A stretch of 64,000 nt of DNA from Climacium dendroides (lineage: Eukaryota; Streptophyta; Bryopsida; Hypnales; Climaciaceae). Where the stretch lies: NCBI GenBank assembly GCA_950106755.1, contig OX467082.1, positions 17,174,001 to 17,238,000 on the forward strand, read 5' to 3'. How positions within the stretch are numbered: position 1 is the first letter of the stretch; each line of letters starts with the position of its first letter. The notes below the pieces were generated by a model that did no database searches, was not told where the DNA came from, and saw nothing but the letters and a program-made list of their open reading frames with translations. Shown here piece by piece: positions 13,340-58,575 of the stretch. The position numbers and the translations under genes were made by a program.

Positions 13340-13551
13340 CAATATGGGATATAGGATATGGGTACAGACTAGGGATAATATATTGGTACGGATACAGAGT
13401 AAGGATACTATAGTGGTATGGATATAGATATGGACTAGGGATAGTATATTTGTACAAATATAGATACAAACTCCATGAATATAAAATTGGTATACATATA
13501 TAGAATTGAGATATGGATATAGATACTACATTCGTTATATATCCCATATTG
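13340..13551. repeat. Short element with 14-bp terminal inverted repeats and internal tandem units
   Basis: It begins CAATATGGGATATA (13340-13353) and ends with its exact reverse complement (13538-13551). Inside are roughly 30-36-bp degenerate units built on GGATAYAGA and ACTAGGGATA. It is possibly a MITE; no clear target duplication. Confidence 0.5.
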
Positions 13552-25585: not shown

Positions 25586-26090
25586 ATTTTAACTAATTTT
25601 TTCTATTTGATCTATACATTGTAACAAATTTTGTACCTTTGAGCGTGATTGTACAATTGGTTTAACAAAATTTAGTTAAAATATAGAGATATCTATTTTA
25701 TAAAGTTTGACCATGTAATATCTTATATCGAATTTTTCATTAATCATTTTTTGTTACATAGTAAGATGTTTTTTTAACATGAGAGATGTGCATATAAATT
25801 TTCCTACATATCTATGTAATCAAATTAAAACATTTATCAACAATGTTTTTCAATCAATTATCAAATAGAATCATGAATATTAAATGAAACATTTTACCAA
25901 AAATGATTTTATTATTTTGGAAACTAAAATTGTGTATGCTTAATTGGGATTGTGTATGCTTAATAACTTAATTGGGATTGTGTTATCTGTGAAAGACAAA
26001 AAATGCCATTTATACTCACTATTATGCAAAATTCTTTACATGACACAATAGGCAATTTGAAATATTATTGTACTCCATGTATGGGCAATT

Positions 26091-29000
26091 TCGTTAAAAT
26101 GGCGGTATTCCATGTGCCATTTTGACATGAGAACCGTTGAGGTGATTTTGCTTTGTCGGCAATTTCGTTAAAATGGTGGTATTCCATGTCCCATGTTGAC
26201 ATGAGCGACCATTAAGTTGCCTTTGTATTGTGCTATGTACTAGTTGTTGGGCGTAGCGCTAGTGAGTGGCAAATGGGCCCCTTGCATACGAGTGCAAATC
26301 CTTAGGATTTCTATACAGGACTTGTGCGAAAGACAATGACTATAGATGTTGTTAGTGAAAGTCTTGGTAGACTAATAGGTAGAACGTGGAAATCTTGTCA
26401 TGGAGTTGTTGGTGCTTAACATGGGTGTCGTTGCCCATTGAAGTGGAGGGGGGGGAATATTTGTGTTCATCATCATGATGGGCACAAGTTTGGGTACTTG
26501 TTTAGGTTTGCATCGTTCATAAGTGCGTGGTCAGTGAAGTTGGTATCTAAAATACGTCTTGTTGGAATGGATGCAAAACAGAAGGGCAAAAACTTGTATT
26601 TCAGATTGAACAAAATGGAGGTTGCATACAAAGATCGAGGACCAGACAACCTATGATGCCTATAGTCTATTCAAAATTGTACAATCCGTTGCAATGTCAT
26701 CGGACGAGAAAAACTATCACTACCTGTTGCATAATATGTGAAGGTCCACCTTCTACAATACAAAGGGGCATCGCAAGCATGAAATATGACTGTTGGAATA
26801 GTCATCTCCCAGGACTTCATATTCACCAATCTTGTTCTTCTTCAACAATTCGACGTAAATGATCCACTGCAAACTGCACTTGTTGACGAGGAGCAATGAA
26901 ACTATTTCCATCGTTCTTCTTTGGTTTCCATGATGCCATGATACTATCTGTGGAAACATAGTCAGCTTTGTCGGCCGTTCAGTCAATCTTCCATCTGAAA
27001 TTAGGCTTTGTGTTCCATCCCGCATACAACCGTTGCACATCTTTGGATGTTCCACATGGGGTGTACCATTGCACTAAGACTTCGCGAAAGTGAATGGCCG
27101 TGGGATCAAATTGTGGATTTTCTACTGCCCTTCCGAGCCATACGGGCTCAAGACAATCCAATCTTGGCCTCACAAAGAGGTAGAATCCCTCACGAACATC
27201 AGTGACTACATTGTATGCTGGTGGGGGCCTTCCCTCTAGAGTACCAATGTAAGGATCTTCGGCCTCCAACTCTTGACGTGTCCTTCCATCTTGCATGAAA
27301 TTTGTCATAAGATCTCCGGGTTGTCGAGTTTGAGGCCAAAATCCTTGTTGCAATTCATTAGATTGGGGGGAGTCTTCTTCGCCTCCATCCAGCATGGCAT
27401 TTCTCACGCGGGTCCAATACGTGACCAAGTTTGACATGTGGGTTTTGTACTCCACCGTCCCATCTTCTTCGGATATGTCCTTCCAATGTTGGATGTATTT
27501 ATCAAGTCCACGCAAAATCTCAGCTTCGTTTGTCATCTTCTTCGGGGTCACGCACGGTGGATCACCTTGAGGAAGTATAGGTCTATGGTCGACATCTTCC
27601 TTCCATAGCTTCAATCCCCCTTCAGGCAACCATGGAATGTCTGTATACGCCAATTTGTATTGCATGATAGGCCATCCGTTGTCATCCATGAAGAATTTGT
27701 ATTGTCTCTCATGAGAGTGGCCCACCAATTGTTTATTGTGCATCCCAATATAAGGTTTGACATAGGCCTTGAAGTCGGGCACTTCTTCAATTAGATGTGG
27801 AATGAACGGACCTTGTTCCATTTCCATGTAGGATTGCATCAATGATGGTAGGGTGGGATGGTCTTTCTCGTGGAATTGCATACTCCATCGCCCAAATGAT
27901 GCATCCATGTCATCATGGGTGTGATCCACTATCATGAAGGATACCACCACTTCTTTCACAATGCATCTTGCCACCAAGAGGGACCAAAAACAGAAGACAT
28001 ACCTGTTTTTGTTTTCCCTCCAAGAGTTGTCCATTTGAACGTGTAGCACCGGTGGCAATGGTTGAGCCTCAATAGGTTGAGGAAGAACAGCTCCCAAAGA
28101 ATCAACACAGATCTCGCTACCTTGCAGCAACGCTCGATATAGTTCCGTGCTTCCGGCTCCTTCGAACAACGTCCGTGAAGACATTGTGGGGGGCCCTTCT
28201 AAATCTTGTAACAATTTGGCGATGGATCCCACTGTGAAGTTGCTGTCGCTGGGAAACACGTCCAAATTGTAATGTGCATATTTACCATCCCCGTGTCCAT
28301 GTGCAAAAATCCCTGATATCTTCACGGGCAACTTCATGAACCCATCTAGGGCTTTTGTTTTCCTTGCCAATGCAGGACATGCTGTTTTTGAATGATCCAT
28401 TTTGTCGTGCATGATAGATAAAAGTTGCATAGGCCGTAATTTGGACAACCATCTACTACGGTAGTAGGCATGTCGACAAGCTTCTTGTAGAAACAAGTGC
28501 TTCTCGAAGCGCCTTTGGATTCGTTGATAGTCTTCCGATCCAGGAGCAAAAGAAGCTCGTAGTTGCTTTAGATTGTCACAAATGCTACATCTTGCAAAGG
28601 AATCTCCCCTTCCCTTCACGACGTACTCAACAAAATATTTTGTTCGAATTTTACTAAAACATGATTGCGAGAGTGTCGACAGCCCGAGTTCTTCATTGGC
28701 CTACAAACAATAGAAACACGCGCACTTAGTCTGCGTATTCAACAAGTACTTCATTGGATGTTGGAGGACTCTATGAGCTATTGTGGTCGATGCGACAATT
28801 CGACCATGTCCTTTTCATATGAATGCCATAGGTGACATTGCGAGCCGTACCTTGTTCACGGTGGCTAGTAATTGCCTCCATTCGGTACCGGTCGGAAGAA
28901 CTTTGAGGCAAACCTTTTCACCAGTGGGCAAGGTGCGAGACAAATGGGGCATGTGGTCGGCCATTGCCTCTAATAATGAGCGCAAAGTCTCGATGCCTTG

Positions 29001-29970
29001 AACAGTGGCAGTGCTTGTCTTTTTTCTATTGGAGTTCCCGTGTGGAGCGCCTCTGACGCCAGCCTTGGCTTTGGCCCTGTATCTTTCGAATGTGCGGAGG
29101 GGGATGTTGTGAAGAATCCTCCAAGCATGTGGACAGACGTCTATGCCTTCTAAGGTGACAACTTGCCTCCCCCTTGGAACAGCTTTGTGCATTGTCCTAT
29201 GAACATCCAAATTTTTGCTAGATTTCACTTGAAATGTCTGTAGGTGCATTTCCGTGCGAAGCACGCGGATGGTGGAAGGACGGAACTTACGAGTGCATTC
29301 ATTATCGCAGCAGATTTGTGTGAAGACCTCAGCAATGGATTTATGTGATACCATCTTCATCTTCTTATCTAGTAAAGCGACAGCTCGAGCTCTCCTATCA
29401 TAACAATATTGTCGCACGCCCCCATTTTTTCTACTCCTTTCCATTTCTTTATCCAGAGCTTCTCGCTTGCGAGCGTGATCGTAAACACTGACGTATCCAT
29501 TTTCGCCGTGGTGAAACACCTGCCGCATAGGCCAGCGCAAGCACATGTCTCCGACGTTGGGGTCCCCGTTGTACACGTCCAAGACAACAATGCCAACGTC
29601 ATCCATCCCCAGCCTGCTCTGTCCATCAATGCATGCGTTGGGATTGGCATTGATGATGATCACTTCCGCAAAGTCGGAGCCGTCCGCATGTTTTGCGAGC
29701 AATGCCTTCCCAGACCATCTGTCTCAATCAATGCCCTCACAATCTGGGATGGGACTATTGTCTATGTTTGCCTCGGCATATGCTTCCAAGTCCACGTCCT
29801 CTTCCTGACATTCTACAAACCCCTGCACACCGAACGATGAAGAATTGACACGACATCAATGACAAAGGAATGCAATGTACAATAAGAAACGTGAAAACTG
29901 ACGACAGTAGAAAATTATATACAATACCTCATCACCATCAGAGTCGTCCGAAGAAAACATAGGAGACATT
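26091..29970 (-). mobile_element. Transposon-like element, copy 2 (inverted relative to copy 1)
   Basis: The 3' end is at 26091 (ATGGGCAATTTCGTTAAAA), matching the end of copy 1 at 2810; flanks diverge outside it. The staggered second motif lies at about 26158-26180. The body contains the full transposase-like gene. I could not find the matching 5' terminal repeat to the right of 29970; the dyad arrays at 30600-31125 may belong to the element or to its target. Confidence 0.75.
26823..29969 (-). pseudogene. Transposase-like (DUF7869-type) gene, copy 2, three exons, two nonsense codons
   Basis: Exons on the minus strand: 29969-29928 (starts MSPMFSSDDSDGDE), 29822-28851 and 28700-26823. Junctions are GT-AG and the phases agree, giving a 963-aa frame. 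Order of parts: acidic N-terminus; FTQICCDNECTRKF (paired Cys); DVCPHAWRILHNI; FARCSICDNLK; then the RNase H-like block with QMDNSWRENKNRYVF and DHTHDDMDASF. Copy 1 has G where this copy has D in that last motif, a G-to-A change in a conserved position. In-frame TGA codons interrupt at 29724-29726 and 26979-26981; copy 1 has CGA at the second. It was probably a cut-and-paste transposase; the family name is from memory and the activity is inference. Confidence 0.75.
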
Positions 29971-30602: not shown

Positions 30603-31115
30603 AGTTTAGAACGGCCGCTCTGAACTGCGAGGAACAGGATGCATGCGTAATTTATCCACGCGATCGCGCCTAATTGGGAAAACGGAGGACTAGGATCTAA
30701 ATAATGCGCATGCAAAACATAGTTCAGAGTGGCCACTCTGAATTGAACAAAGGGTGACAAATCATGAACGCTCTGAACGGACGGTGACGGAGCTCTGTGA
30801 CCGTCAGTTTGGAGCGTTCATGATTAGTCACCCTCTGTTCAGTTCAGAGTGGCCGTTCTGAACTAAATGGAGGATAGCTTTCGTCTCTGTCACCTGATGT
30901 TCAATTCAGAGCGGCCGCTCTGAACTAAACGGAGGATAGCTTTCGTCTTTGTCACCTCACGTTCAGTTCAGAGCGGTCGCTCTGAACCGAACGGAGGATA
31001 GCTTTCCGAATCGTCACCCCACGTTCCGTTCAGAGTGACCGCTCTGAACTGAACGGAGTGTCATATTGCTTCCCAATCGTCACCCCACATTCAGTTCAGA
31101 GCGGCCGCCCTGAAC
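30603..31115. repeat. Dyad-repeat array with foldback and 62-bp tandem units
   Basis: Seven copies of the dyad (arm TTCAGAGYG, two central bases, inverted arm) occur at about 30603, 30722, 30842, 30905, 30966, 31029 and 31095. The last five are spaced 62-65 bp apart with the shared spacer GGAGGATAGCTTTCGTC, forming a tandem array. Positions 30721-30864 form one long imperfect palindrome. No coding function; see findings. Confidence 0.8.
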
Positions 31116-37957: not shown

Positions 37958-38796
37958 GGTTCAGAGCGGTCGCTCTAAACCTCCAGCTCTAGAATGAGCG
38001 CTGTCGAGGTTCAGAGCGACCGCTCTGAATTTGCACTTGTGAAGTCGGCCAGACTGGTTTAGAGCGGTCGCTCTGAACCGTGATCGAGTTCATAATGTAG
38101 CAGGAGGTTCAGAGTGACCGGTCTAAACCTCCCTGTGAACGAAATGATAGTTGTGATTTCGTTCAGAGAGAGGTTTAGAGCGGTCGCTCTGAACCTCCTA
38201 CTACATTATGAACTCGATCACGGTTAAGAGCGACCGCTCTAAACCTACAGCATTGAAATCGTGTACAAGGTGGTTCAGAGCGGTCGCCCTAAACCCTGAC
38301 TATGCTCATCACGAAGCAGAGGTTCAGAGAGGCCTTTCTAAACCTGCAGATATTGGTACTGGGAATGGTAGAATTGAGCGCAGTCGTTCGTCTGGAGCGT
38401 GACCACGGTTTAGAGCGACCGCTCTGAAATCAAGCAGTCGCCGAAACGAGTGCAGCAGATTCACAGTGGTCACTCCAAACCGCCACTTCCACAATGAGAG
38501 TGGAAGCGGTTCAGAGCGACCGCTCTGAAGCTTCCAGTTGGTAGTTAGGATCTAGGTTCTCATCGGTCGCTCTGATTCTCAATGATGGCAATGATCGCTG
38601 TCAAGATTCAGACAGACCGTTCACAACATCCTCAGGGTTGGAATTAGAGCTACAAGTTTAGAGCGGTCGCTCTGAACCTTTATCGACATGACCGAAGCTT
38701 ACTAGATGTATGTACTCCCTACAGTGAAGAGCGGCAGCTCTGATCTTGTAACATCTCTTTCAACATTAGGGAGGTTTAGAGCGGTCGCTCCAAACT
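37958..38796. repeat. Cluster of about a dozen 24-bp dyads upstream of gene A
   Basis: The consensus is arm GGTTYAGAGCG, two bases, then the inverted arm. Clear copies start at 37958, 38008, 38056, 38106, 38172, 38222, 38272, 38407, 38508, 38654 and 38774, most 46-66 bp apart. Degenerate ones lie near 38320, 38459 and 38555. Another is at 39144-39167. Positions 38056-38245 form a single long hairpin. The spacers are not conserved between most copies, unlike an ordinary satellite. Confidence 0.85.
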
Positions 38797-39232
38797 CATT
38801 CAGATAGCTCACTGAAGTGAGCATCCGATGAAATAACATCTTCGTGTAGATCGGGTATGGTGAGACCAGTATCTCTGACCGATGAATTGAATGATTCATC
38901 TGGGAAGACAATAGAGGATAGAGGGGCATAGAACCTAGGTTATGATCATTTCACATTGTACTATAGGATCCAGAGAACCCGATTGATTAGTATAGTGAAG
39001 CCGCTGTGAAATTTAATTGCAACCCAATTAAATAGCAGGAAACCAAGCCCAAACACTACATATTACGCACGGTCAATAGTACAGAATTGTCTATAAGCAG
39101 ACAGCTGTGAACATCTACACTGAATAGGTCGTGGATCCACATCAGTTTAGAGCGGTCGCTCTGAACTAATCGAAGGGCTAGAACCCCAGTAATACGGGGC
39201 CGCTGAGAAGATTGCAATTTTAAGCGGCCTAT

Positions 39233-39712
39233 TTGATTCTGAGCGGCCGGTTTGATTTGATTCATGTGGACAGTGACATGGAGTCCTTCCTCGAGAGCAA
39301 GCCACCTCTCACGGGCTACATTACACAAATACCGCCTGAGCGGCTAATGGAGTCGTGGAAGGCGCACGTTGAAGGGAAAATTCCGTTGACCTTCATTGCA
39401 ACCAAAGCATTGTGGACCATGGAAATGAGTTACCTTCACGGCTCCCTGATATTTAATTTAGAATTGGGGTTCACAAAATTGGGAGGGCCTAGATGGAAAT
39501 CCTTTAAGAACTTGGTAGTCATTAACATTATTGTGATGCGAGAGGCCGTTCTCGTCGACGTAGTGAATTCGTGCAACAATGCTCTGGGAGTAGTCATCAT
39601 CCGCGTAGAGGACAAGATGATATTCTGCCATGAGCAGTCGCGGCCGCCTCGGTACCGACCAACCGTTCCCGGTCGCCAACAACGTCAGCGTTGCCAGGGT
39701 CCGCAGGCATGA
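39233..39712 (+). CDS. Candidate upstream exon or separate ORF before gene A
   Basis: This open frame has good protein character from about 39270 (MESFLESKPPLTGYITQIPP..., ending VVIIRVEDKMIFCHEQ near 39640). It shares the GC-rich composition of gene A. It ends at TGA (39710-39712), just where the frame of gene A begins with ATG at 39709. I could not find an intron of credible length to join the two frames. It may be the 5' exon of gene A after a small indel, or an independent small gene. No family recognised. Confidence 0.4.
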   Translation: MILSGRFDLIHVDSDMESFLESKPPLTGYITQIPPERLMESWKAHVEGKIPLTFIATKALWTMEMSYLHGSLIFNLELGFTKLGGPRWKSFKNLVVINIIVMREAVLVDVVNSCNNALGVVIIRVEDKMIFCHEQSRPPRYRPTVPGRQQRQRCQGPQA

Positions 39713-42700
39713 CAACTCCTCATACGCCGGTTGAACCTGTACGGTCTGCTCCCGCGACGGTGGCGCCACAAACGACTCCATCCCGATCCCCTCCGTCTCG
39801 GCCCAATCCACCTAGCACGGTAGTAGCAGAGCGTCCCAGGCCCACGGCACGGGACAAACAAAAGACGCGAAAGAAGAAGTCCGCACTTGTCGCCACCGGT
39901 GACCACTCGGCCTCACAAGATGAAGGGGCGTCCCACTTTTGCAAGACACAACGGACCTTGCACGATGTGGAAGAGGGTGAAGGTGCCCCAAGCGCATCCA
40001 CGCAGAGCGCCGTCCCGGAGTCCACCGACTTATCCGAAGAGGAGGTACAGAAGGTGGCATTCAAGAAGGTGAATGGCCATTGGGTTCACAACCTGGTGAC
40101 CTTGCCGTTCGATGAGAAAGCTGTTCCGGATAAGTTGTTTGTGGATCTGGAGATCAAAAAGGAGCCCAAGCGCAGTGAAGAAGAGGAAGCCCGGAAACGC
40201 CTCAAGGCCGAGGCAGTGGCGAATAAGAAGTTCAAGGAGTTGTCCGCTTACATGTACATATTCGGACGAGGCAGCTTCTTCGAGTTGGACCTCGAGGACA
40301 TGACAAGTGCCGACGAGACGTCGGGATTGATCTTCAGGCCATTGGAGAAGAAGGGTGTCCTAGCCGTCCTCGACCACATGGTGAAGGTCAACTTCACCAA
40401 GCAAATCCTGACCGTCATGCCGGACATGCCAGAGAGACCTACCTGCTGGGCCGATTGCATCAAGGCCTTCCCGTTGAAAATTATCAACGGCCAGCACACG
40501 TGGAAGGCTGCGACCGAAATCATTTCAGGGACAACATCCGTCGACAATGAGGCGGTCAAGAAGCGGGTGCAAAAGTGGACTTGTGAAATCGTCTGGTCCA
40601 AAAACAAGGACCACCTGCACGCGCTCTCCTGCAAGTGCAATGACGGGAACGTCACCGGCCCGTACCTGTCGTCGCTCCCTGCCACGATCCGCCATTGCCG
40701 ATATCTGTGGGACAACACGCGGAGACCAACCCAATTCCGGAAGAACACGAGGCAGGCGGACAAAGGAGACAAATTCAAGGCCTACGAGGTATGTCTCCTC
40801 CACTTGGTCAGTTTAGACCGCCCGGTCTGATCTGTGATATAGTAGATATTGTCGAGTCCACGTTCATGTTGTTCCAATGCCTTGGACAATGGCACAATCG
40901 TCTCACTTTGTTCCACTGTAATGGAATGAATCCAAGCCACTTCAGTGCGACCGCTCTGAACTTTCGTACTGTATACCTAGGATGCTATCCTTCAAATCCA
41001 TTCAAATAAGCTTAGTGCGGGAGGTCTGATGCATGTTCTCAAAGTTGTGATCCTCTAACTTAGTCAATTGCGGTGTGCAGGACTTCCGAGACAAGGCGGA
41101 ACAGAGCTTCGAGTCCACCGGCCTCCTCAAGCCGCTGTCTGGAAACCGAAGAACGTACGACCTGGATAGGATGGGGGAGAGGAAAATCATCATGGCCTCC
41201 GAGGAAACTTGGTCGGCTTGGTTGAAGGTCTTTGAAGCTCACGAGCAAGGCACTCTGCATGACGCGGACACGGGCGGTCCATTCAATGAAGCGGTGAGCA
41301 AGGACGGGAACGCCAAGGTGTACAAGTTCCAACCCATCACGAATAATATGATGAAGGCCTTGCTCGGAATGGAAGATGACGCCGTCGGCGAGCTGGCCCA
41401 AAAAATCCTGGACGTGCCGCCCAAGGTGTACCTCAACAAGAGACCTACGGTCTGGACGTCGGCCATTCCTTTCCTCATGTGGTGCACAAACAAGAAGCAC
41501 AAGATGCAACTAGCGAAGGAGATTGTCGACAAGGCCGACACCTTCGGCATCGAGGAGGCCAAGGGCGTATTTCCCGAGCCGGGAGACATGAATGTCAAGG
41601 CTTGGCGGAATCTGAAGACCGTGTTGTGCATCGATGGCTTCCACATGTGGCACCTCATAAGTCTCGGTTTGGATTGGGTGAAGTCCCAGTGCCGGTCAGG
41701 GAGGACAATAGAGAAGCCCAAGAAGCCATTCCTGGCGGCGTTGGATCAGGTCGTGCAAAATGCCGACCGATGCGAGAAGGTCAGGAAGTGCTCCCGAGCC
41801 ACCATCTGCCGATGGATACGAAGCGAGAAGCACTTCGACCCACAGTTGTACGTGCATAAGAATGGGGCGTGGTCACCGTATCGATCGGAAACTGGAGCCA
41901 CGAAGACGGAGTACTGCGAGGTCGACATTATTGACTTCCGACTATTTCCGAAGGTGGAAGGCATGGAGGTCACTTCCGGGCACGCAAAAATCATGGAGGA
42001 AGTGAGGAAGGTCTCCAACTCCAGCATGTCCAGGACCGTGTACACATGGATGTTCATCTTCAATTCGAAGCGGGCGGCTGCGGTGGACAGATTGGCGACG
42101 GAGCTCTTCCCGTCCTATTCACTTAGGCGGGAATGTGATTATGTGATCTGCAAGGGAGAGCCGACCTTCAAGGAGAGGAACAGGGACAAGGTCATGTACT
42201 TGCAGCGGAGTGCCAAGACCTTCATGAACTCCAAGTTGGTGGACGCTAAGGGCAAGGTGCCCAAATTGTCCAAGGACGAGGACAACGACCTCATAGCCAC
42301 GGATCCCATGTATAAGACTCGGGAGGTCTGCCGCCACGATTTCCCTCGGATCCTGTCCAAGCGCAAGCTACGATACGACGTGTACTTGCGCTTCATCGAC
42401 AAGTTCTGCAGGGATCAAGGAACGGTCATGCTCGTCTTCACTGGAGTGAAAGCAGTCTCGGCATGCACGGTAATGATTTCACTACTCGTGTTTTGTTTCT
42501 TTGCAGGGGCTATATGGTCCAGAAGAATAGATATTCCACGTTCATGTTTTGTCCCTTCACTAACACTATGTCCTGCAGATGTTGTGTTGCAGTTCCGTCT
42601 CCTTCATGATCTCCACCGAGAAAGCCCTTCTCCTCCATTCCGTGCATCAGCAGATTGGTGCGGAAATGTGGCCTCATGTCTTCGTGCCGGGGTACACCCT

Positions 42701-43349
42701 TAAGTACGACTACGATGGGCAGTCCCCGACGCAGAGATGTCGACTGACCATAGAGGAGGAGCCCGCACCAACCGAAGAGGAAGCCATGTCGGACGAGGCG
42801 TTGGACATCGTCGATGCCGAGCATGTGGACGCGGAACCCCCCGTCGAGGATGAAGAAGTGGACAAAGGGGGAGAAGAGGACAAAGGCGAAGAGGAAGGGG
42901 AGGACAAAGAAGATCTACTCGAACGAAGGGGAGAAGATCTTCATCAAAGGGGGGCAATATTGGAGGAAGTGGAGGGGCTTGAAGATGATGATGATGACGA
43001 GGATGAAGAAGAGGACGAGGATGAGGAAGACAATCTAGACGAAGACGTATTGGATGATCGAACGCTCGACCGTGACGAAGAAGATAGCGGCCCTGAAATC
43101 ATAGGGGAATCGTCACAAAACCGTATGGAGAGCGAGGCAACGGTACAGTCTAAGGAGGCTGCCATCAGATCGGCGGGTGTTCCTCGTAACGATCAGATTG
43201 TGCGGTCTGATCACGCGTCTCCCACTGCAGCAGTTCAGAGCGGGCGGTCTGATTCAGCCCCTTCCTTGTCTCCCACTTCTCCATCCTCCCATCCACAACT
43301 TCAAACTCTACGTTTTGATTCTCCTCCAGCACGGCTTCCGGAACTGTAG
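39709..43349 (+). CDS. Gene A: ParB/DGQHR-like domain plus putative degenerate N6/N4 DNA-methylase-like region, 1079 aa
   Basis: Exons 39709-40788, 41081-42469 and 42579-43349 join in frame without a stop; junctions are AG|GT and CAG| type. Residues 1-130 are Pro/Ser/Thr-rich with a basic KTRKKKS patch. Around residue 260, FPLKIINGQHTWKAATEI resembles the GxxR/H core of ParB-like and DGQHR domains. Residues about 640-720 (TVYTWMFIFNS, then CDYVICKGEPTFKERNR) and the exon 2/3 junction (GTVMLVFTGVKAVSAC and STEKALLLH) resemble the late and FxG motifs of N6_N4 methylases. No DPPY/DPPW box is present. The C-terminal 180 residues are acidic with a long Asp/Glu run, then Ser/Pro-rich. ParB-methylase fusions are known in phages and bacteria; here the domain calls are by eye. 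The gene is intact, unlike its neighbours. Confidence 0.55.
40812..40830. repeat. Dyad repeat in intron 1 of gene A
   Basis: TTTAGACCG-CC-CGGTCTGA. Same architecture as the upstream cluster, with a variant arm. A further copy lies at 40941-40960 (TTCAGTGCG-AC-CGCTCTGAA) and a weak one at about 41010. Confidence 0.7.
43234..43253. repeat. Dyad repeat inside the last coding exon of gene A
   Basis: TTCAGAGCG-GG-CGGTCTGAT lies in the Ser/Pro-rich C-terminal coding region. A half-site, GTGCGGTCTGATCA, precedes it at 43199. A further intergenic copy is at 43411-43430, between genes A and B. Confidence 0.6.
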
Positions 43350-44509
43350 AGGGCCCAAACCGATTCTGCCTCACCCCTATCGAGTCATAGTCATCCTCGC
43401 CTCCAAGAGGTTTAGACCGTGCGGTCTGAAGTAAGCGGCCCCATCTTCAAAACTCCCGCTCCGTGTACATCCACAGGCCCATCTTTTAGTACGGGCACTT
43501 CTCGTGAGGGCTCTCCTCCCGTCCTTCCCAAGATGTAGATCGAGGATCTCCAGACAGAGTTGGACGATCTCAAGGCGAGACTCTCTGAAGAGCAACGGGT
43601 GGAGTTGGAGAATGTCTGATCCAACGTCGAAGACTACTCCACCGAACCTGCGCGGGGATCGATGGATGAAAAAATTACCAAGGTGAAGGGCGTTCTTCGG
43701 GAGTTGAAGTCTGCTCGACCCCCACTGGATGCCGATGGAGTGAACAAGCTCATCACAGTGCATGTCGTCGTTGATACCTTGCGGTCGCAACTGCCTCTCG
43801 TCGGCCCCGAGGAACTCGTTCTCTTGGCTCATGTGCGGGCCATGAAGCAGAAGCTCAATTTGGCTCTCCAGAATGCCAAGGAGAACCCGATTGACCTCGA
43901 CGACGTGGATGAGGTGGATCTGGATATGCGGCTCTCCACGGCGAAGGAGAATAGGGAGGAGTACAGCCAGATGGTCAAGGCTGCCACCCAAGGGGGGGAT
44001 TGCACTCCGTCAGACGCGGAGACCGCATCTGGAGGTGGAATGGCCGCACCTCAAGCGTCGGGGAGCTCGGACGTGGGGAGGAAGGAGACGAAGCCCGACA
44101 CCATGGACAAGAAGGCGGGCCTCAACCTCGCGTACATCGAGATGATGTCCGAGCGATACAAGAGGAAGCATTCCGTGGTGGTCGAGAAGTGTGCCGAGAC
44201 CATCGAGGCCCTCCAGAGGGAGAGAGAGGAGAAGGAGCAGTTGGAGTAGGAAAAGAAGGCCAAGCGCAAGGCCAAGAAAGCGGAGAGGGACCGTGTCGTA
44301 GCACAGGAAAGCAAAAATCCTTTTCTAAGGCTCAATATTTCTTAAAAGAGGCCCTAAAGTGACTCGAGTATCGTTCCCACGAAGATCGAATTTCCTAGGT
44401 TCACAATTACCGGAAAATGGTAGAGTGATGGTCACGAAACACACACAAACACAAAACCCCAAGCAAAACAATAGACCAGAACTTCCACTTGGCCTCCTTG
44501 TTTCCTTGG

Positions 44510-44610
44510 ACAAACACGACCGGATCTCTCCGGTCCAACAATTACTACTACACTTTAGACCGGATCTTCCCGATCTAATAACACTGACCGGATTGATTCC
44601 GGTCTAACAC
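44510..44610. repeat. ACCGG dyads in the insert
   Basis: Three dyads follow each other: GACCGGATCTCTCCGGTCC, TTAGACCGGATC with CCGATCTAA, and GACCGGATTGATTCCGGTC. Further CCGGTCTAA half-sites lie near 44793, 45031 and 45081, and a CCGGT-rich tract at 48305-48480. The layout is like the other dyad family, but with an ACCGG core. Confidence 0.6.
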
Positions 44611-45789
44611 CCACTAGTTTATCACACAGACTCTCTAATTGGTTAGTTTACTACCCCACGGCTTTACACTACCTTGTAACTCTCTCCAACACTTCTATTC
44701 ACATACCTTTGGTAGTTACATGTATTTACGTTTCTCAGACCGGAACCGGAACCCGCGTTTCCACAGATTTAACCTTAACCTCTAGTATTCACATCCGGTC
44801 TAGATCTCTAATTGTAACCATGTGGATTTTAACCTCTCGACGAGGGATCTGCTTAATTGGGCTTTAGGAAGGAAGCTTAACTCCTACCCTTCCATTTTAA
44901 AGTGTTAGAAGTTTCACTATGTGCTCAAACTTTCAAAAATAAACTTTCAAATCCTACAAATGAGAAAACAGACCGTCCTCACAACTGGAAAGGAAACGCA
45001 GTCGTGTCCAACAGGTCACGCAAGCCGGTCTAATTCCTCCTAACCAATGCTACAACGACAACCTACTGAGTTAGTCCTAAATCCGGTCTAAACTAGCGGG
45101 GGCAATAAGGAGAAACGAGCGCTGCGGAGGCGTGCTAACCCTTACTCTTTCCGGAGAGTGGTCCTCAATCCGTACTCTTTTCGAGTCCATTCCTAGTCCA
45201 CACTAGAGATCCCTTCTGTCTCTGCCCACACACACTAATTCAATACTGGACCGGATAAACTCAGCATCCGGGTACACCTTGTATCCACTCACACTCACTT
45301 TCCAGCCTGGACTTCCAAAACACGGACAAGTGTCAAGTACACACAACTATGATTTGTTTCAATCACGCCAAGAGCGAACTCCTAGGTACTCATGAATATA
45401 AGAAGGTAAGATAAAGATGCACACTGGGACCAAAGAAGTCCCGGATTTAAATACTAAACTACTCCCTCAAAATCCTAATCTAAAAGTAACGCTCCAGCCA
45501 ATCAGGGCTCAACACGTTTCATTCCCTTACTAATTTCTAGCCCTGTTGACTTTCACTCAAACTCCCACTACTTCCGCTAAAAGTGGATCTCAGATCCTAT
45601 AATTATGGACCCGGTCACTTTCCAACTGCTAGTGGCCGTGTCACTCAAAAAAGTAATTTTCCTAATTATGTACAACTATCCCAAAACTTCAGATTTTCAC
45701 TACCCTATCCTCGGAAATTTACCCTACATAACTTTCTAAGTTTTTAACTTCTTCACGGCCGGCTTCTTTCCGGTTCCGGTCTTCTGTCC

Positions 45790-47858
45790 CTAGCGTACCT
45801 TACCCCGAGTGGCAAGCTTCTTCTTCTTGGATGCTGCAGCCTTGGTTGCCCGAGTCTTTGCCAGTGCTTGATCCGGGTCAGAATATGGCTCCGAGTCCTC
45901 CTCAGTACCGGATTCTTCATCCTCGTCCTCTTCTTCTTCCTCTTCCTCCTCGTCATCGTCCTCTAAAATCGTCCTCTTCTTATGTGTCATAATTGGAGGC
46001 TTCTTCTTTTGCGTGGTTGGTGTGGGCGGAACATTGGCCCTAGCACTCTGAGGAGTGGTTTCCTCAATTGGTCTGCTCTTCCCGGATCCTTGCCCCTGTG
46101 ATCCGGTCTTCCTTTCCTCCATTAACCCAGTTTCGCTTCCCAAAGCTAAGTTGAATAGGGTGGAAGGAAATACCTTCTGTGTCTTTGCAGGAGGAGGCAG
46201 AGAGACTGGAGATAACTCACTGAGGTCGATAAACTTGGTACTCAGCCCTGGTTTAGGCACGTTCTTCTTCTCGGATGGTTCCGGTCCAGATCTCGTCTTC
46301 TCTTCAGTTGCGGCCTTCACCTCTTCCGATGGTTCCTCGCCTTGCTTGTTGTCTCCACTTCTCTGGTCTTCTCTTCCTCAGCAGCTTCTACTGCTCGCAC
46401 TGCATTAAGAGCAACGTCCGTTACCTCCCCCAGCAGGGAAGTCATTTCTCCTTTAGGCTCTGACCGGATGGAAGAGCTCGGCTCGTCCTCCATCTTGTCC
46501 TTCGCCTTTACTTCTTCTTCGGTGACCGGAAGGGGTGCTGGTGCGAGTTCCGGTTCCGTTTCCGGTCCCTGCTCCCGCTCTCTTCGTTCTTCTACCTCCT
46601 TCATCACCTCGCGCAGTGGCTCCACTATTGCCTCCATCTTGCGGTGGTAGGACACTAACGCCATCATCAGGTTGGTTGGAATTTGCTTTCCGGTCTCCAT
46701 CACCTTCTCGTCAAACAACATTGCTTTGTTGATGACTTCGCCCGGATTGCTGATGAACTCCCGGATCGCCTGAAGGTTCTTTGCGGCTGTCTTGGAGAAT
46801 TTCTTCTACTGGTCCATTTTTTCTCTCTTCTCCTCCAACTCCCTCGTTAGCCAGTCCACCTTACTCGCGGCTTCGCTCAGCTCTTTCTTCACCGCTTCCT
46901 TCATCTTCCGGTCCAGTTGGGCAACGAGCTGCTGCGGCTGACTGACCTTCAGCAGCTGACACAGTTCTTGAATGGTCTCCTGGCTCTTCCCGTACTGGAC
47001 CCGGAACTCACTGAGTTCCCTCACAATTCGACCTAGGGGATCCTGGTTCCAAACCGGATCGACTCCCTTACTACCCTCTCCTATCTCTGAGTCTTTCTCT
47101 TTCCGGTCCTGCTTCCTCCACTGAGACTTAGTTTCCTCGACCAGTATAGTGTCTGCCTCTGAATCTTCCTCTTCTTGCCCGGCTTCCTCATCCGGGTCTT
47201 CTATATCGAATTTGGACATGGCTCTGGCCGTATCATATGAATCTATCTCTCTATTTGTAAGCCAGCCATGTGCTTGATACAAGTGGTAGAGAAAAGGGGT
47301 TATAGGGGAAGGCTTAGACTTCCCTATACCTCCTACCAATCTCTTGATCTGATCTCTCATCACTACGCCCCAATCTACTTTCCGTTCACCCGACAGTGCA
47401 CCGAAAATAGTGTTCGCTAGGGTGACCGTAATCTTGTTTGGTCGCTTTAGACTAAGGATGGCTACTAGGTATTTCATTAAACGTTTCTCCCTACCATTTA
47501 TGCACTCTGCCACAGGGAAACCATCCTTCTTCGTTGGGGGATTTTGGAACTTACCCACGTAGAAGCGATTTGTCCGGGAAGCCGGTCCCTTGTCCGTCTT
47601 CTTGAAATCGTACGTCTCCCTCCACAGCGTTGGAGTCCAGTCTTTAGGCCGGCTTCTCGACGTCCCCTTCCACTTCCTTAGCGGCGCGCCGATTACCTCC
47701 CTCACGATCTCCTCGTCTTTCAAATTCCATGGCCGGGCTAGAAATCCCTCACACCCCATCTGTTGGAGGTCTTCTTCTAGCTCCGCTTTCTCTCGTGGAT
47801 CCGCTGGTACCACCGGCTTCACCATGCGCAAGGATACAGCTACCTCTTCTCTCACCAT
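45790..47858 (-). pseudogene. Repetitive plant transposon-associated ORF, decayed
   Basis: ATG at 47858. The main frame to 46806 encodes a globular domain (RPWNLKDEEIVREVIG, LAIL-type helices, NTIFGALSGERKVDWG, ITPFLYHLYQAHGWLT), then an acidic linker and a coiled coil. It resembles a family of repetitive ORFs common in plant genomes with large repeat content, often annotated as putative transposon protein (from memory). A TAG at 46806-46808 interrupts the frame, which then continues in phase (KKFSKTAAKNLQAIREF, then 46721-46317). A one-base shift near 46350-46380 moves it to 46320-45790, an acidic and Lys-rich tail with a Glu/Asp run. Role unknown; gag-like is a guess. Confidence 0.5.
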
Positions 47859-50800
47859 CGTGGGCTGTTCTCTCAAACCCTCTCAAACCCTCTCAGTGAC
47901 CGGAATCACTATTTGAGGTCTCACAATCACTCGCACTCTAGTTTTCCTATTCCGCTCAAGGACCCTCCTCAAAAAGTCGTATCACCAGTACACTCCTGAC
48001 TCCACACTCATACGTGAACTTCTAAGTGAACTCTCCTCTCAAGACCCGTCTGTCCTTAATCCAGTCCGTAAATTGAGCCCGTAACTTCTTCTCTTTGGCT
48101 GACATATAAGTACACCTCAAATGCTCCTCACCAATCTCTTCTCAAGGTAGCTTCCGCGCAAAAGGAGGTTTGAGCCACTTGCCCCTCCTATTTCTAGGGC
48201 TGCACTCACCCGGCCCGTTACAGGTGACCGTTTTCCCCAAAATAGACCCGCTCTCAAGTATGGTCTAGAACTAGGTAGGCACCCGTTACTCCTGGATTGC
48301 TTGTCTTCCGTTTCCGGTCTCCGGTCTTCTATTTTATTCCGGTTTCCGGTTTCTAATGAAAATCACTCTGACTTACCCCTGACCTATCTATGCCGTTTCT
48401 GGACTTTCGGTTTCCGGTTTCCGGTTACTTCTGTTAACACTATAATCTATTCTAAAGTAACCCTATTCCGGTATCCGGTCCCTAACTACTTACGGTCTAC
48501 TTTTCTAAAGAAAAAAAAAAAAAATAGGGAGTAAAAAGAGCTCTATTCCCCTTATTTCCCTTCTAAACCTAAAGATTGGATTTCCGTGCTCCCACAGACC
48601 GCGAGCTCGCCGAGAAGGAGAGGCAGTTGGAGGAGTAGAGGAGGCAACAGGCGGAGAAGGATAGGCAGTATGAGGAGGACAAGAGGCGCGATCGGGAGTT
48701 GATGAAGATTATGAACGAGCGCTTCGAGATGTTCACCTCGGCAATGCCCAAGGCAACTCCCACACCCGTCACTCCCACGGCCCATCCTGCCAGCGAAATC
48801 CAGAACCTCTTTGGAGTGTCCACCACCAACTCGACTTCCGCGACGGCCACAGCGGCGTCGGGCCTGCAATTACTGGGGATCGTGGAGCCTGCAACTATTT
48901 CGGTGAGTGTCACTCGCGATCCAAACTACGATGACTTGGCCCTCAGTCAGTTTCCGTTTATTCATATCCCTGAACCCATGCATCGTCCCAGCGTCGTCGA
49001 CGATGATCCTTATGACCTGGACGTTCAATTGGGGGATATGGAGGCCTCGTTCACTAACTTGACTCAACAATATGCTCCTCTGCAGGCAGCAGTTGCTCCA
49101 CCGCAGCCCCCGGTGACGCGAGATGAACAAGCCCCGGTGGACTCGCCGGCCAAGGACGACGAGGCTCCCACGGTGGGTAACCTCTACACATAGCTCCCAT
49201 CTTTGTAGTTAGTCGTAGTGGTGTGGACGCTATGTTAGGGTGTTACGCCGGGACGATCGAAGATCATCTCGACGAGTCTGTCTTGAGTCTGTTCAGCCGC
49301 GAGACCGGGAGTCTGGAGACTCTTGTCTTGGTTAGGATTGTAGTGGTCCTGTTAGGTGTAGACTACTAGACTTGGGCGTGATCACTGAACCTCTGCATTC
49401 ACCGTTCAGTTTGTACAAACTTTGTATTCCACTTGTAATATATTGGGTGCTTTTCTTTATACATGACTCTTGTTTCGTTGAAATGCTCTATGGGATTTGT
49501 CTCCGACTACTTCTGGACGTTGTAGTTACGCCCTTTGCATTTTCAGTTCAGGTTGTCGATGCTCTCGCACGTGACAACGAGTCTCCGTTGTCCCCACTTC
49601 CCGTTTCGGCCCCGAGGAATGATGAAGTCCTACCTGCCATCCCCATGGAAGTCGACTCTCCTGTTGTTGCTATTGTCGAGGTCGTCCCTCCCGTCGACTT
49701 GGAAGTCGCCACTCCGGTGCCTCAAAACTTAGTGCCTCCTTTCCTCGTAGACGTCCATGCTCCCGATGTCGATGAGGTCGCCACTCCGGTACCTATGAAG
49801 ATGGTGCCTCCCTCCCTCGCAGATGTCGGCACTCTCGCTGTCTTGGCGCCACCGGCACCACCTCCTCTCGCGGCCACCACTCCCACGGATGTAAGAAAGG
49901 TGAGACTCCATGTCCTTACAACCCTTTGCTCCTTGTCTCTATCCAGCACTTGCCTAAATAGTTTGTAGGAAGTGCACATCTCATTCAGGTTAGAACTTGG
50001 ATCTTCATAGAGAGGGGGTTGTCGTCTCTCTCTTAGCAAGACAAAGCTTGAGGAGTCGCATGTTCATTTTTGTGGACTCCATTTCTTCATAAAGAAGAGG
50101 ACTTTGAGCATGGGATTTCGCATACGCAGGCTCCACTGCCGGTGTCCGCGACGACGCCCCCTGTCGCTTTACCTGTGTATAGTTATTTCGTCAATCTGGA
50201 GTTGGAAGGGGTCCTCGCCCAAATTGAGGACGTTGGGCGCATCCAGCCAACTCCCTCGACCTCGAAGGCAAAGCCCTCGAAGGAGGATTACCACCCTCGA
50301 CGGCGCCACGTCTTCGGCAAATACACAATGCATTGCCGTCCCGACTTGCACCGCTTCCTCACGGGCTTGACGAATCGATTTTACGTCTCCGTCTGGACTC
50401 GGCTGCCCGCCGTCGTTGCCAAACCCATGGTCGATTTCCTCTTTCGCGACTTCGACCGCACTTACATGCAGGTCCTCACACTGGAGAACTGCACCTCCAT
50501 TATCGAGAGGCGGCTGTGGTGGGAGTGCAGGTGCCCGCCCTTGCCGTCCCTTCCCAACCTACCCTGCCCGGGGCACCCCGCCCATATCTCATGTGATCCT
50601 ACTATCGACGTGAACACCTACGTGCAGTTCCCCGACCATCCGAAGGGGTAGCTGCGGCTGAAGGTGTTGCACAAGGTTGTGTGGGACACCGAGACGTTCA
50701 TCACCAAGAACTTCCGGGCCAATTCGTCCAATACCCTCCTCATCGATTCCTCTTCGGAGAGCAGCATCCTGAATCCCGTGCACAACACCGTATTTCCCTT

Positions 50801-51660
50801 GTCGTATGTGGGCAGTGAACACGATTCCACTCTCTTGGGGACTGTGCGCCCGTATCTCGAAGGCCTGCTCGCATCCAGTCTTGGCGTGTCGCAATACGTG
50901 TCTCAGAACGCACTTTTCGGACACCTCACGATACCCTTGAGACAGACATATTTGGAACTGCGTGTTCGCGTGTTAGCTCCGTGGCAGGACAGGCACCTCG
51001 TGCTGGAATATCCGGACTTTGTCGGCAAATACACTAGAGAAGGGGACGATTATTTCACCCGACAAAGAGGGAAGAAGAAGCCCAAAAAAAAATTTGATGC
51101 CCACACAAAAACTTGATGTGTGTGCAGGGGCGCCGACGCGTTCACGCTCTGGGCGGGCATGCTGCCGCCGATTCCCGAATGGGCACCGGACGCGGCAAGC
51201 GGCGACGGATGCAGATGACAGAAGGGGTGGGCTCCTCCGACGGTTGCATGACCCCCGATGAGGCGGGCCAGGACGTCACATCTACTCGAATTTAAATGGA
51301 GGACGCGGCCGGCGGCCGCATGGAGATGCGACGGGCTGCACATATTGTAAGGTGGGCTCATCAATAGCTAATGGGGATGGCTGAATTCAGGTACGCAAGG
51401 GCCAACGGGTGACTTTGATGGAGAAATAATTTTTTCCCGCCCTACCCTATGATGTAGTCTAGGATGGGGAGAAATTATTTCTCCATCGAACACTCTGTTG
51501 CGCTCCATTTCCACTCTGAACATGTCCTGGGCTTATTTATGCCATCATTGAACGGCCACTCTTGTCCGACGGACCCTCACGGTTGGCTTGTTGTGCAGAA
51601 TCCTGGGTGCACCATTCACATTTGCGGAGCTGACCTCCTCCCAAAGCAGCCACTACAAGC

Positions 51661-53599: not shown

Positions 53600-56500
53600 A
53601 GGGGATCCCTCCATTGGGGAAATTGTGATAGGCAAGTGACCGCGTAGATGCTAGTTTCTATGTGAAGGAAGTAGTAAGCTGGCAATCAAATTCTATGGTC
53701 TGTTGCAATCTTTTTGAAAATCTAATTCTTCCAAGGACTTTGCTCCCATGTACATTTGGCTACGCAAACTTCTTAGTGGTGATGGAGGAAATTGCAGCAA
53801 GTTCCGTGAACGATGCTGTCCACTAAGGTAGGTGGATGGAATTCCAACCCTCTTCTTCAGACCGTCCCCTAGCTGGCTTTAAAATGGACCTTAAGAGGTT
53901 GGTAAATAGGTAATCAATGTTCCTTGGATGATGAAAAAGAGGTTTATCATTTATCAATTATTTGTTTATACTTTGATAGGGGACATAATTAGAGCCAATG
54001 TGGGTCCATTTCTGAATACATGTGTGTGCATTCCAAAAAAAAATGCACTCAAACTTTGAATGTTAATATCTTTTAATCCATATGGTCAAACTTCATGAAA
54101 TTGTTACTACATGATCTCATATAAATAAAGTACAAGATCCTATGGTTTGATTTTCTTTAAACTATTTTTTTTGTTGCCTTGGATGAATTGAGCAAAAATG
54201 ATAGTTTTGGGTGATTTTTGACCAGAAATAGGCCTTGGGACTTTAGGAGTTTGGTTTAGTACACATCACATTTAGGAACCTTGTCTACTATATTTTTGCA
54301 TGCTACAGTGCTTGTTTTCAGACCGCACGTGTGTGGGTTTTGCAAGGCCTAGGGATCATAAATAGGTACCTATGGCAGAATTCTTTGAAAATTCATAAGT
54401 AATTCATAAATGCTCTGAAAAATATGAAACCACTTGGGTTAAATTCCAAATCAGATTTTCTTCAAGTGAAAAATAAAGAAAAATAATTTCAAGCATCTAA
54501 AGACCATCGAAAAGGCCGACCATCCCGTAAAGGGTCGCTTCATGAGCCCCCTACCTTAAACCGACCCTCAATGCCATCTTCCTCTGAGACCGTGGAGTGA
54601 CTGGAGTCTAGTTAAGACCTCAGACTAATGAATTGCCCAAAAAGAATCCCGCATTGCATTGTCTCTTTGGCTTTCCTATTTTCCAATAGGTGAAAATGCT
54701 TGAGTCTTCTATTGTATGATCCTCCATCATGACCTCAATCTGAGCTTCCCAGTCGGGAAGGGGCCCCATTCCATCCCATGAGCGCTAAAAAAACAATAGA
54801 GTATGCACTTCAAGAACCCTACAAGCCGCATCTCAACAAGTTTCCGGTCTTCTCGGCTACCGGAAAACCGCCATTTCAATGGAATTTCGCCATTTTAACG
54901 AAATTGCCCATATGTGTTGTACATAACAATGGGTGTTTAATATAAAACCTTTTGGCACAAAGGAAATAAAAAGCCTTTTGCTTAGAAAAGTTAGGTTGGT
55001 TGGTGATTGCAAGAAACACTCGTCCTTTTTTTGTCCCCTAACTTTTGAACATGTGGATTTTTGCTAATAAGTTTTGCATCATACATTAGTTTTATTAGGA
55101 GATATTTAAAAATAATAAAATAATTTTTATTTAAAAAATCCTATTTAGGCTATCTTAGCTATTTTGAGCAGTTTAGAACTATTTTTGATCCAAAAATGCA
55201 AACTTCAAGATCAAAATTGGAATACAAAGAATTCTACTAAAGTTATTCAAGTTTACATAGAGATTTTCTAAAATAATAAGTTGTCCACCTACCATATGTG
55301 CTCAAAGTGCATTTGTTTTGTGCAAGTGCCAAACAATAATTTTTTTATGAAAAAGAAAATAGTCAAGAAGGATCATCTTTAAATTAGGAAAAAAAATATT
55401 TTATTTATTTAATATTTTCTAAAAAGCAAACATCAAAATGTCCATTTTCTTGGCAATTATTTTCCATTGTCCTTTTTTGTGCATAACTTTTAAAGATAAA
55501 TTATTTTAAGTCTAAATTTTTGAAAACCTACTATTCTCAATGTTTTACAAATTATTCAAATCTTATTTTATTATTAAAAAAGTTATTCCAAAAGTCACAA
55601 TATTTGCCAAGATAGGCTGCTTTGAGCCAAAAACGGCAAATGTTTCTTGCAACAACCTTGGTCAATTTTCGGATCACCTTGAAAATCATCCATTTTGAGA
55701 CAATGTAAATCATCATTCTCCTAGAAAAATCAAAAATATGGGGTGCCCATATTCGACCACTATCCTAATAAAATTGGTCAAAAATTGGAAAAACAAAAAT
55801 ATGTTAAATTTTCCAAAATTTCCAATTTTTGACCAATTTTTCTATTTAAAGTGATTAATTTTTTTGTAAAATACCAAAAACAAATATGTGCACCTGGATG
55901 GAACAAATTCTACAAAATACTTCAATTCAAGCAAGAAAAAATTATTAAAATAATTATTTTGCAAATTTTTATGCCTTATGCAAAAAATTGCCTAAAATCA
56001 ACACTTGCAGGCATTGCATCACCAAATAAATAACATTTTTAATGCTTGAAAGTAATCATTTCAAATAGTATATATCTAAATGTACTTTAAAAAAATTACA
56101 AAAATGATGTCATTTGATATTTTAAATTAAATTCCTTGAATGTTTTCGTGTAGCTAGGACAAATCTTATTTTTTGTACAAAAAGGCAAAACCACATTTGG
56201 TTGATTCATTTGTTATTTTGTTTTAAAAGGGGACTTGTTCAAAGTTGGTATGCTAGCCCATTTTAGAGTCAAAAAAGCTTTGGGGGTACCCACATCTGAC
56301 CGCTATCCATAAACGTGGAATTAGGAGATTGAGGGGTGCTTTTTATTTAAAGCCAATTTGTTATGTAAGAGGCCTAAAATCCTCACTTGTGATTGGACAA
56401 AAGGTTGAACTTTGTACATCAGCGTCAAAGTAATTGGCCATCCTAAGCATCCTCTAGGTGCAAAATGTCCTCAAGTTCCACCAATATCATTATACTCCAC

Positions 56501-57476: not shown

Positions 57477-58575
57477 ATGGCTTTCGACTACAGTGCTCTC
57501 AGTACCTGGAAGACTCGGGACCTCTTGTCCCGGGACAGCAGGCTGGTAAACAGGACACGGGTACGTTCCATGAGCTAGGTCACTGCTCTACTATCTATCA
57601 ATGAATAGAATAGGCTTCAGTTTGCACTTGCTCTGTGTAACCGAATTTCAGTTGATTGCAAGCTGATCTCCATATCGACAATGGAACTCGATCGGTCTCG
57701 CAAGTCGCAGCAAATATAACGACCCCATGCTAGAGAAAGTAAGATTACAATGGCAGTTTTAAGTAATAATTACGTGGGGTGCGCAGGTGATGGGGATGAG
57801 CGAGAAGGCAGCCATTATTCACGTCGTGACGCTGGTCTGTACCGCGGGGTTTTCCCTGCCGATCAACCTAGGGTTCTGTATTTGGCACGCCCATCGCTAC
57901 GACGAGATCAAGAAGGAGCGCATGTTTATCCGCCAGATTCTAGGCAATCGGAACATGTCGTATCGGGGCAAAGGCCACTGGGTGGAGGTGCAGCCGGACC
58001 CGAACAAGGCGCAGCGGGGTCGGGTGCAGCCGACTCCGAACAAGGCGCAGCCGGGTCGAGTGCAGCCGCCCCCGAACAGAGCACAGCCGGGTCGGGTGCA
58101 GCCGCCCCCGAACAGAGGGCGGACCGACAACGACCGCCAATTGCAAAATGCGCAGCCCAATGCTAACGCCTCAGTGAACAACGACCCCCAGATGCAATAT
58201 GAGCAGGCCTATGTCAACGCCTCAGTGAACAACGACCCCCAGATGCAATATGAGCAGCCCAATGCCGACGTCTCAGTGAACAACGACCCCCAGATGCAAT
58301 ATGAGCAGCCCAATGCCGACGTCTCAGTGAACTACTCGCAGGAAGATTACGGCTACTATGCCGAGAACGACCAGATGCAGTCTGTGGAAAACAATGGCGC
58401 CAATGCCTCGGTGAACGACTGTGACCAAGATGTCGGGGGCAATGCCGAAGACGATCTCCAGTTTCAGCAGGACTTTGGCGACTCCGCAATGATCGACTTG
58501 GAGCAAGATGTCGGCATCAGCGACGGACTCAGTGAGGCTATCGGTTCCGGGCTACTAGATCTGTTATCTAGCTAG
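57477..58575 (+). CDS. Two-exon gene: single-pass membrane protein with Pro/Asn/Gln repeat tail (copy 2)
   Basis: Exon 1 is 57477-57560 (28 codons, MAFDYSALSTWKT...). The intron 57561-57786 begins GTACGT and ends GCGCAG. Exon 2 is 57787-58575. The predicted protein is 290 aa. There is one hydrophobic helix (IIHVVTLVCTAGFSLPINLG) and a basic RQILGNRNMSYRGKGHW segment, as in the paralogue at 17330-18448. The tail differs: four units ending QPxPN, then four 17-residue units with NNDPQMQYEQ, then an acidic C-terminus. Upstream repeats R3-R2 are shared with copy 1, showing segmental duplication of promoter plus gene. Tail divergence by unit gain suggests weak constraint on sequence but keeping of composition. 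Function unknown. Confidence 0.65.

Follow-up and report, generated by a model that had tools for sequence, protein, structure and literature searches.

Sola1-1_Ec32 of Ectocarpus is a 21.5-kb giant Sola-1 transposon that encodes a 1,104-amino-acid accessory protein combining a ParB-like domain with a DNA methyltransferase (PMC12477816, in the portion of the report consulted). The same portion cites similar ParB-methylase proteins for green and red algae and proposes that the target which they bind and modify is the transposon that encodes them. The Sola superfamily is characterized, in the consulted part of its source, by 4-bp target-site duplications (TSDs) and terminal inverted repeats (TIRs), and some of its elements exceed 15 kb (PMC10741241). 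In a different family, VANC21 binds dense short motifs in the non-coding parts of VANDAL21 and removes silencing, as stated in excerpts of PMC5735166. Here we describe a stretch of 64,000 nucleotides from Climacium dendroides (assembly GCA_950106755.1, contig OX467082.1, positions 17,174,001 to 17,238,000 of the forward strand), the whole of which is referred to as the window. The gene under study, at 39709-43349 of the window, is a 5'-deleted and 3'-truncated copy of gene B of a TIR DNA transposon of about 25 kb. The ParB-methylase kind of accessory protein is known from algae; the additions made by this locus are degenerate catalytic motifs that are common to the relatives of gene B and a candidate cognate site. 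The part that looks new is the palindrome GTTCAGAGCGNNCGCTCTGAAC, which occurs in arrays 5' of both element genes.

A sequence-only reading of the window had described 39709-43349 as an intact three-exon gene in a neighbourhood of broken genes, pairing a ParB-like motif with a methylase-like region. The motifs and the three-exon open frame stood, but the intactness and the single-copy status did not, because the gene is one damaged copy of a repeat. The repeat is delimited in the window by the following features.

26081 to 54911, plus strand: whole transposon copy, 28,831 bp including a nested 4.3-kb insertion, defined by the TIRs, the alignment to copy c41 and the pair spacing
26077 to 26080, no strand: left target-site duplication ATGT, 4 bp
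54912 to 54915, no strand: right target-site duplication ATGT, 4 bp
26081 to 26104, plus strand: left terminal inverted repeat ATGGGCAATTTCGTTAAAATGGCG, 24 bp
54888 to 54911, minus strand: right terminal inverted repeat, 24 bp

In c41, c37, c2 and the window copy, the element is bounded on either side by a perfect 24-bp TIR, and all five copies with both ends read carry a 4-bp TSD (ATAT, TTAT, TTAT, ATGT and ACGA). Three complete copies measure 25,010, 25,032 and 25,074 bp. The genome searched, from which c41, c39, c3a and the other in-genome copies come, comprises 412.6 Mb and contains 890 TIR matches with at most one mismatch (438 forward and 452 reverse), compared with none for the backwards control. 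Among the 100 matches listed, a forward-reverse spacing of about 25.1 kb is recurrent, and three pairs at 322 bp point to miniature inverted-repeat transposable elements (MITEs). The middle exon of the gene (41081-42469) was found in at least 40 genomic places, namely its own and 39 others at 96-97% identity, and its full 1,389 bases were matched in 39 of the 40; this count is a lower bound, given that 40 of 67 candidates were scored. In an alignment of 10 other element copies to the window copy, the young copies are 99.1-99.7% identical in the main aligned blocks and end at a common sharp right border, and a sharp left border is common to the window copy and the three copies read further upstream. 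The window copy diverges from c41 by about 3-13%, varying by segment.

A second copy of the transposon has its left end at window positions 1-2810 on the minus strand (G000:C1:17148827-17176810, 27,984 bp, TSD ACGA), 23 kb away from the window's own copy and in the opposite orientation. A short MITE-like element extends from position 18092 to about 18250, with a matching left TIR, an imperfect right TIR and the 4-bp duplication ACAA.

Gene B is distributed over the window copy as follows.

39278 to 39635, plus strand: true 5' end of gene B (MESFLESK...), cut by a deletion of about 229 bp; the frame stops at 39710-39712
39633 to 40788, plus strand: rest of the first coding exon with the ParB-like domain; INGQHTWKA at 40483-40509
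41081 to 42469, plus strand: second coding exon with a helical region and the methylase-like region; IIDFRLFPK stands at the motif IV place
42579 to 43349, plus strand: third coding exon, which completes the motif-I-like block and continues into an acidic tail; it ends at a premature stop

Exons 39709-40788, 41081-42469 and 42579-43349 splice in frame into 1,079 codons and a stop across two GT...AG introns, exactly as the sequence-only reading had proposed, and the INGQHTWKAATE motif that it reported was found at residue 259 of the spliced product. Its designation of the gene as intact was overturned by the comparison with c41, which reveals both a 5' deletion of about 229 bp and a premature stop in the window copy. 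Gene B of c41 is open for 1,809 codons across the joined exons, and the ATG at which the shorter frame had been started is codon 222, with 221 more residues coded upstream. The window copy retains only positions 1-358 and 588-1739 of the first exon, and the frame from the ATG at 39278 is interrupted because of this deletion. At the other end, c41 has a glutamine codon where the window copy has TAG (43347-43349), and stays open up to residue 1809; additional 3' exons may follow. The product of gene B consists of an N-terminal domain, the ParB-like domain, a helical region, the methylase-like region and an acidic and charged tail.

The exons have relatives of 41-60% identity in metagenome collections (seven for the first exon, A1, and five for A2), and the frames of these relatives run out at the intron borders of gene B. 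Four of the seven first-exon relatives (P0001-P0004) start with a domain that lies upstream of the ATG at 39709 and has its window counterpart from 39278; therefore, that ATG is internal. The ratio of nonsynonymous to synonymous substitution (dN/dS, NG86) in exon 41081-42469 is 0.10, 0.18 and 0.20 for c41 against c39, c3a and the window copy, respectively, 0.09-0.41 for c41 against six near-identical copies (3 to 7 differences), and 0.20-0.28 among c39, c3a and the window copy. We read these low values as selection on the gene family. At fixed coordinates, the exon is stop-free in 7 of 11 copies and has one stop each in three others; the 13 apparent stops of c1c are an artefact of an indel-shifted start and not a real count. 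Given the relatives, the common intron borders and the low dN/dS, we regard the gene B exons as real coding sequence.

Support for the ParB-like domain comes from profile comparison. A 140-column stretch chosen around the box was compared by hhalign with 19 phage ParB or ParB-methylase N-domains and reached a score of 30.3 (E 1.9e-4) that none of 200 column shuffles attained; an earlier comparison of a longer region with nine phage fusions had given a score of 22.8 (P 0.033). NGQHTWKAA aligns on the ParB AGHxRLxAA box, and its phage counterparts are AGTHTWKAA in the ParB of Arthrobacter phage Salgado and AGHHVWQAA in Gordonia phage Barb. Because the box arginine is missing, we use the name ParB-like and do not classify the domain as a ParB/sulfiredoxin enzyme. 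The ParB call of the sequence-only reading is thus borne out by hhalign against the phage N-domains but not by the Pfam, PHROGs and PDB sequence searches, in which exons or alignments returned only weak or low-complexity matches. The AlphaFold model of the ParB region is poor (pLDDT, predicted local distance difference test, 48) and gave no useful fold match; the AlphaFold models were built from 8 and 6 sequences and were both poor, and absence from their fold lists is not counted as evidence.

The methylase-like assignment is suggestive only. The top Foldseek rows for a poor model (pLDDT 43.7) give the N6-adenine methylase M.MboIIA (1g60, E 0.026, probability 0.99), followed by a mixture of methylases and acetyltransferases, with no row at E <= 0.001, and no Pfam methylase match was obtained for the gene B exons or alignments. 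D285, F289, P290 and K291 are invariant in all six aligned sequences, and the DPPY place is altered in every one of them, reading D-F/L-R/H-x-F-P. The motif-I place reads VMLVFAGxKAxSA in four of the six and a near variant in the other two, and the acidic residue of DPFxGxG is gone. The DPPY box is therefore missing at its expected place, as the earlier interpretation had noted, and its suggestion of a DNA-binding relative instead of an enzyme is retained as the likelier reading, with the catalytic motifs replaced. The methylase module probably serves DNA recognition and not catalysis. From that interpretation as a whole, the ParB-like part survives through the profile comparison and the intact nuclear gene does not; its methylase part has the weak M.MboIIA match in its favour and the Pfam result and non-significant profile comparisons against it.

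What could a protein of this kind recognize? When runs of one or two bases are excluded, the 10-mer that occurs most often in the entire 25-kb element is part of the palindrome RGTTCAGAGCG-NN-CGCTCTGAACY. The palindrome GTTCAGAGCG-NN-CGCTCTGAAC is arrayed 5' of both element genes, gene B and the putative transposase gene A, and in the window copy it is located as follows.

30607 to 31112, no strand: first palindrome array (array 1), 5' of gene A, with 7 sites of <=2 mismatches
37962 to 39163, no strand: second palindrome array (array 2), immediately 5' of gene B, with 11 sites of <=2 mismatches
40814 to 40958, no strand: two palindromes in the first intron of gene B, with 3 and 1 mismatches

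Copy c41 contains 25 sites at <=2 mismatches to the 14 specified core bases, whereas each of five block shuffles contains 0; at <=3 mismatches, the numbers are 29 in c41 and 0-3 in the shuffles. At this looser threshold, array 1 of c41 comprises 11 sites 5' of gene A (element 4572-5324), and array 2 comprises 12 sites (element 12115-13476) and ends 23 bases before the gene B ATG at 13500. The other c41 sites are two in the first intron of gene B, three in its third coding exon and one beyond. The window copy has 21 sites at <=2 mismatches, and the 32.1 kb of non-element window has 0. Genome-wide, exact 22-bp sites of GTTCAGAGCGNNCGCTCTGAAC, each counted on both strands, number 358, compared with 0 for the backwards control. 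Among the matches listed, which are all on C1, 49 of 50 exact sites are enclosed by TIR-bounded intervals, which together cover 0.9% of this part of C1, although some of these intervals are 50-65 kb long and may contain more than the element. As far as the listed sites go, the palindrome is thus almost restricted to the element. The observed/expected ratio of CpG is 0.88-1.07 in the gene B exons, the NIF open reading frame (ORF) of the element and both arrays, and is lower elsewhere (gene A, 0.79; right part, 0.77; AT-rich core, 0.52; window outside the element, 0.60). These values, which are confounded by youth and GC content, give no more than a hint that methylation decay has been slight.

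We propose, with slightly better than even confidence, that protein B is a sequence-specific regulator of its own transposon that acts on the palindromes through its ParB-like and inactive methylase-like modules. Protein B would bind the palindromes as a dimer through these two modules, and the bound protein would mark the element's own DNA and control the expression of its own gene and of the transposase gene. The most likely route would be that the element genes are kept accessible in the host genome by a VANC-like anti-silencing activity, or that protein B autoregulates, catalysis presumably having been lost. Protein B is put forward as the reader because a symmetric site suits a dimer and the sites sit 5' of both genes. 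ParB proteins are classical readers of palindromic sites, and plasmid ParB/KorB proteins autoregulate. A more ambitious formulation is offered tentatively, as something short of an even chance: a giant transposon equipped with its own ParB/parS-like module, in which a ParB-like protein with an enzyme-dead methylase domain and its cognate arrays 5' of both genes would keep the chromatin of the element open or regulate its activity sequence-specifically.

Several observations weigh against protein B as the palindrome reader. The box arginine is replaced by T in NGQHTW, whereas R is found in 13 of the 15 printed references (the exceptions are T in phage Salgado and V in Barb), and several methylase profile comparisons, including ones with wider references, were not significant, with 166 of 200 shuffles reaching the score. 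The gene A protein or a host factor could bind the palindromes instead. Outside elements, 56.8 kb of sequence contains five loose sites with 2 or 3 mismatches. Moreover, palindromes change as fast as flanks between in-genome subfamilies: the changes in palindromes and flanks are 32/374 and 125/1456 for c41 versus c39, 26/374 and 109/1477 versus c3a, 28/308 and 139/1453 versus the window copy, and 62/316 and 324/1440 versus the partly misaligned c1c. Since the palindromes decay like their flanks, selection on them is not evident in the copies. The flanks in array 1 are partly common at a spacing of 62-66 bp, and therefore tandem duplication of a 62-66-bp unit contributed to this array; the spacers of array 2 have nothing in common apart from the palindrome and one or two bases. 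The flank-like decay and the apparent tandem duplication favour an alternative in which the palindromes are transposase or host-factor sites or small selfish repeats, and protein B is another accessory, such as an excision-helping nicking nuclease. Consistent with the latter role, the ParB-methylase fusion Bce_0392 can nick DNA, according to the consulted part of PMC5512222. We nonetheless consider this alternative unlikely, given that the sites cluster 5' of both genes, with a few in gene B, do not lie at the TIRs and, among those listed, hardly occur outside the element; a nuclease role is further disfavoured by the ParB box without its usual arginine.

Protein B could instead be an active enzyme that writes N6-methyladenine or N4-methylcytosine on its own element, as has been suggested for the ParB-methylase proteins of algal transposons. 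The order of a ParB-like followed by a methylase-like region, as in phage ParB-methylases and the Ectocarpus protein (PMC12477816, in the portion consulted), and an N6-adenine methylase as the top Foldseek match agree with self-methylation, but the replacement of the DPPY and DPFxGxG places in six of six aligned sequences and the non-significant profile match to methylases make it improbable. Finally, an ordinary single intact host gene of the plant nuclear genome, for which the spliced 1,079-codon open frame and the GT-AG introns might speak, has a negligible probability; it is ruled out by the copy number of the middle exon and the TIR- and TSD-bounded ends, and the frame-breaking deletion and the premature stop likewise contradict it.

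The remaining features of the window copy are listed below.

26979 to 29723, minus strand: gene A, DUF7869 protein, putative transposase (ORFs 26979-28700 and 28815-29723)
44294 to 48596, no strand: nested insertion with minus-strand ORFs, absent from the 10 other copies compared
50052 to 51116, plus strand: NIF/FCP1 phosphatase-like ORF with an in-frame stop in the window copy

ORF 26979-28700 of gene A matches PF25273 (E 7.7e-44), and gene A is the putative transposase gene. The NIF ORF of c41 (element 20189-21271) is open for 361 codons, its translation matches PF03031 (E 1.1e-10), and it may form a gene of its own or be the 3' part of gene B. NIF/FCP1-type domains elsewhere act on the RNA polymerase II tail. 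The minus-strand ORFs of the nested 4.3-kb insertion (358, 162 and 195 amino acids) are gag-like by eye, and no self-repeat that would indicate a long terminal repeat was found in 44294-48596. A viral origin was also considered and rejected, as two scans of viral contigs gave 24 and 44 pattern matches and no confirmed relative; the subset of ORFs scanned against Pfam included no capsid or polymerase family. ORFs 17330-17998 (minus strand) and 57763-58575 (plus strand), which are alike by eye, flank the window transposon copy on either side and combine a short membrane-protein-like start with many peptide repeats, such as PNIRQRV or PNKAQ. Positions 4001-6000 show an unusual GC skew of +0.32 in a stretch of 32% GC.

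The sequence thus offers a candidate target site, the 22-bp palindrome that precedes both genes in arrays. Binding of this site by protein B would mean that a transposon in a eukaryotic genome has its own control system of prokaryotic ancestry, specific to the element and comparable to VANC, which is not known to be related to ParB; it would also suggest that a methylase can lose its chemistry and keep its role in recognition.

The combination of ParB and methylase domains, which had seemed unfamiliar to the sequence-only reading, was already reported for a brown alga giant transposon (PMC12477816). As described in the consulted portion of that source, Sola1-1_Ec32 resembles the window element as a giant DNA transposon whose accessory gene is on the opposite strand to the (putative) transposase and combines ParB-like and N4/N6 methylase-like domains in a single protein. 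The methylase of Sola1-1_Ec32 is predicted to produce N4-methylcytosine or N6-methyladenine, whereas the catalytic motifs are replaced in gene B; compared by description, the moss element further differs in its longer gene B (1,809 codons), its DUF7869 transposase candidate and its palindrome arrays. That portion names no target site for the algal ParB-methylase proteins, and no literature search was aimed at palindromes in ParB transposons. The 4-bp TSD, TIRs and large size of the window element are shared with the Sola superfamily (PMC10741241, in the consulted part) and provide a lead only for its placement there. Phage ParB-methylase fusions (for example, Gordonia phage Barb gp85 and Streptococcus phage Javan105) likewise have a ParB-like N-domain followed by a methylase; the nine printed fusions are 404-458 amino acids long and as a rule have DPPY and a DPFxGSG-type box, whereas gene B has neither box and, unlike the phage fusions, has introns. 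VANC21 of Arabidopsis VANDAL21 shares with protein B the setting of an element-encoded protein and element-specific, partly tandem arrays of a short motif; its motif YAGTATTAY is short and in a single orientation, and the binding and anti-silencing that are proposed for protein B have been shown for VANC21 in the excerpts of PMC5735166.

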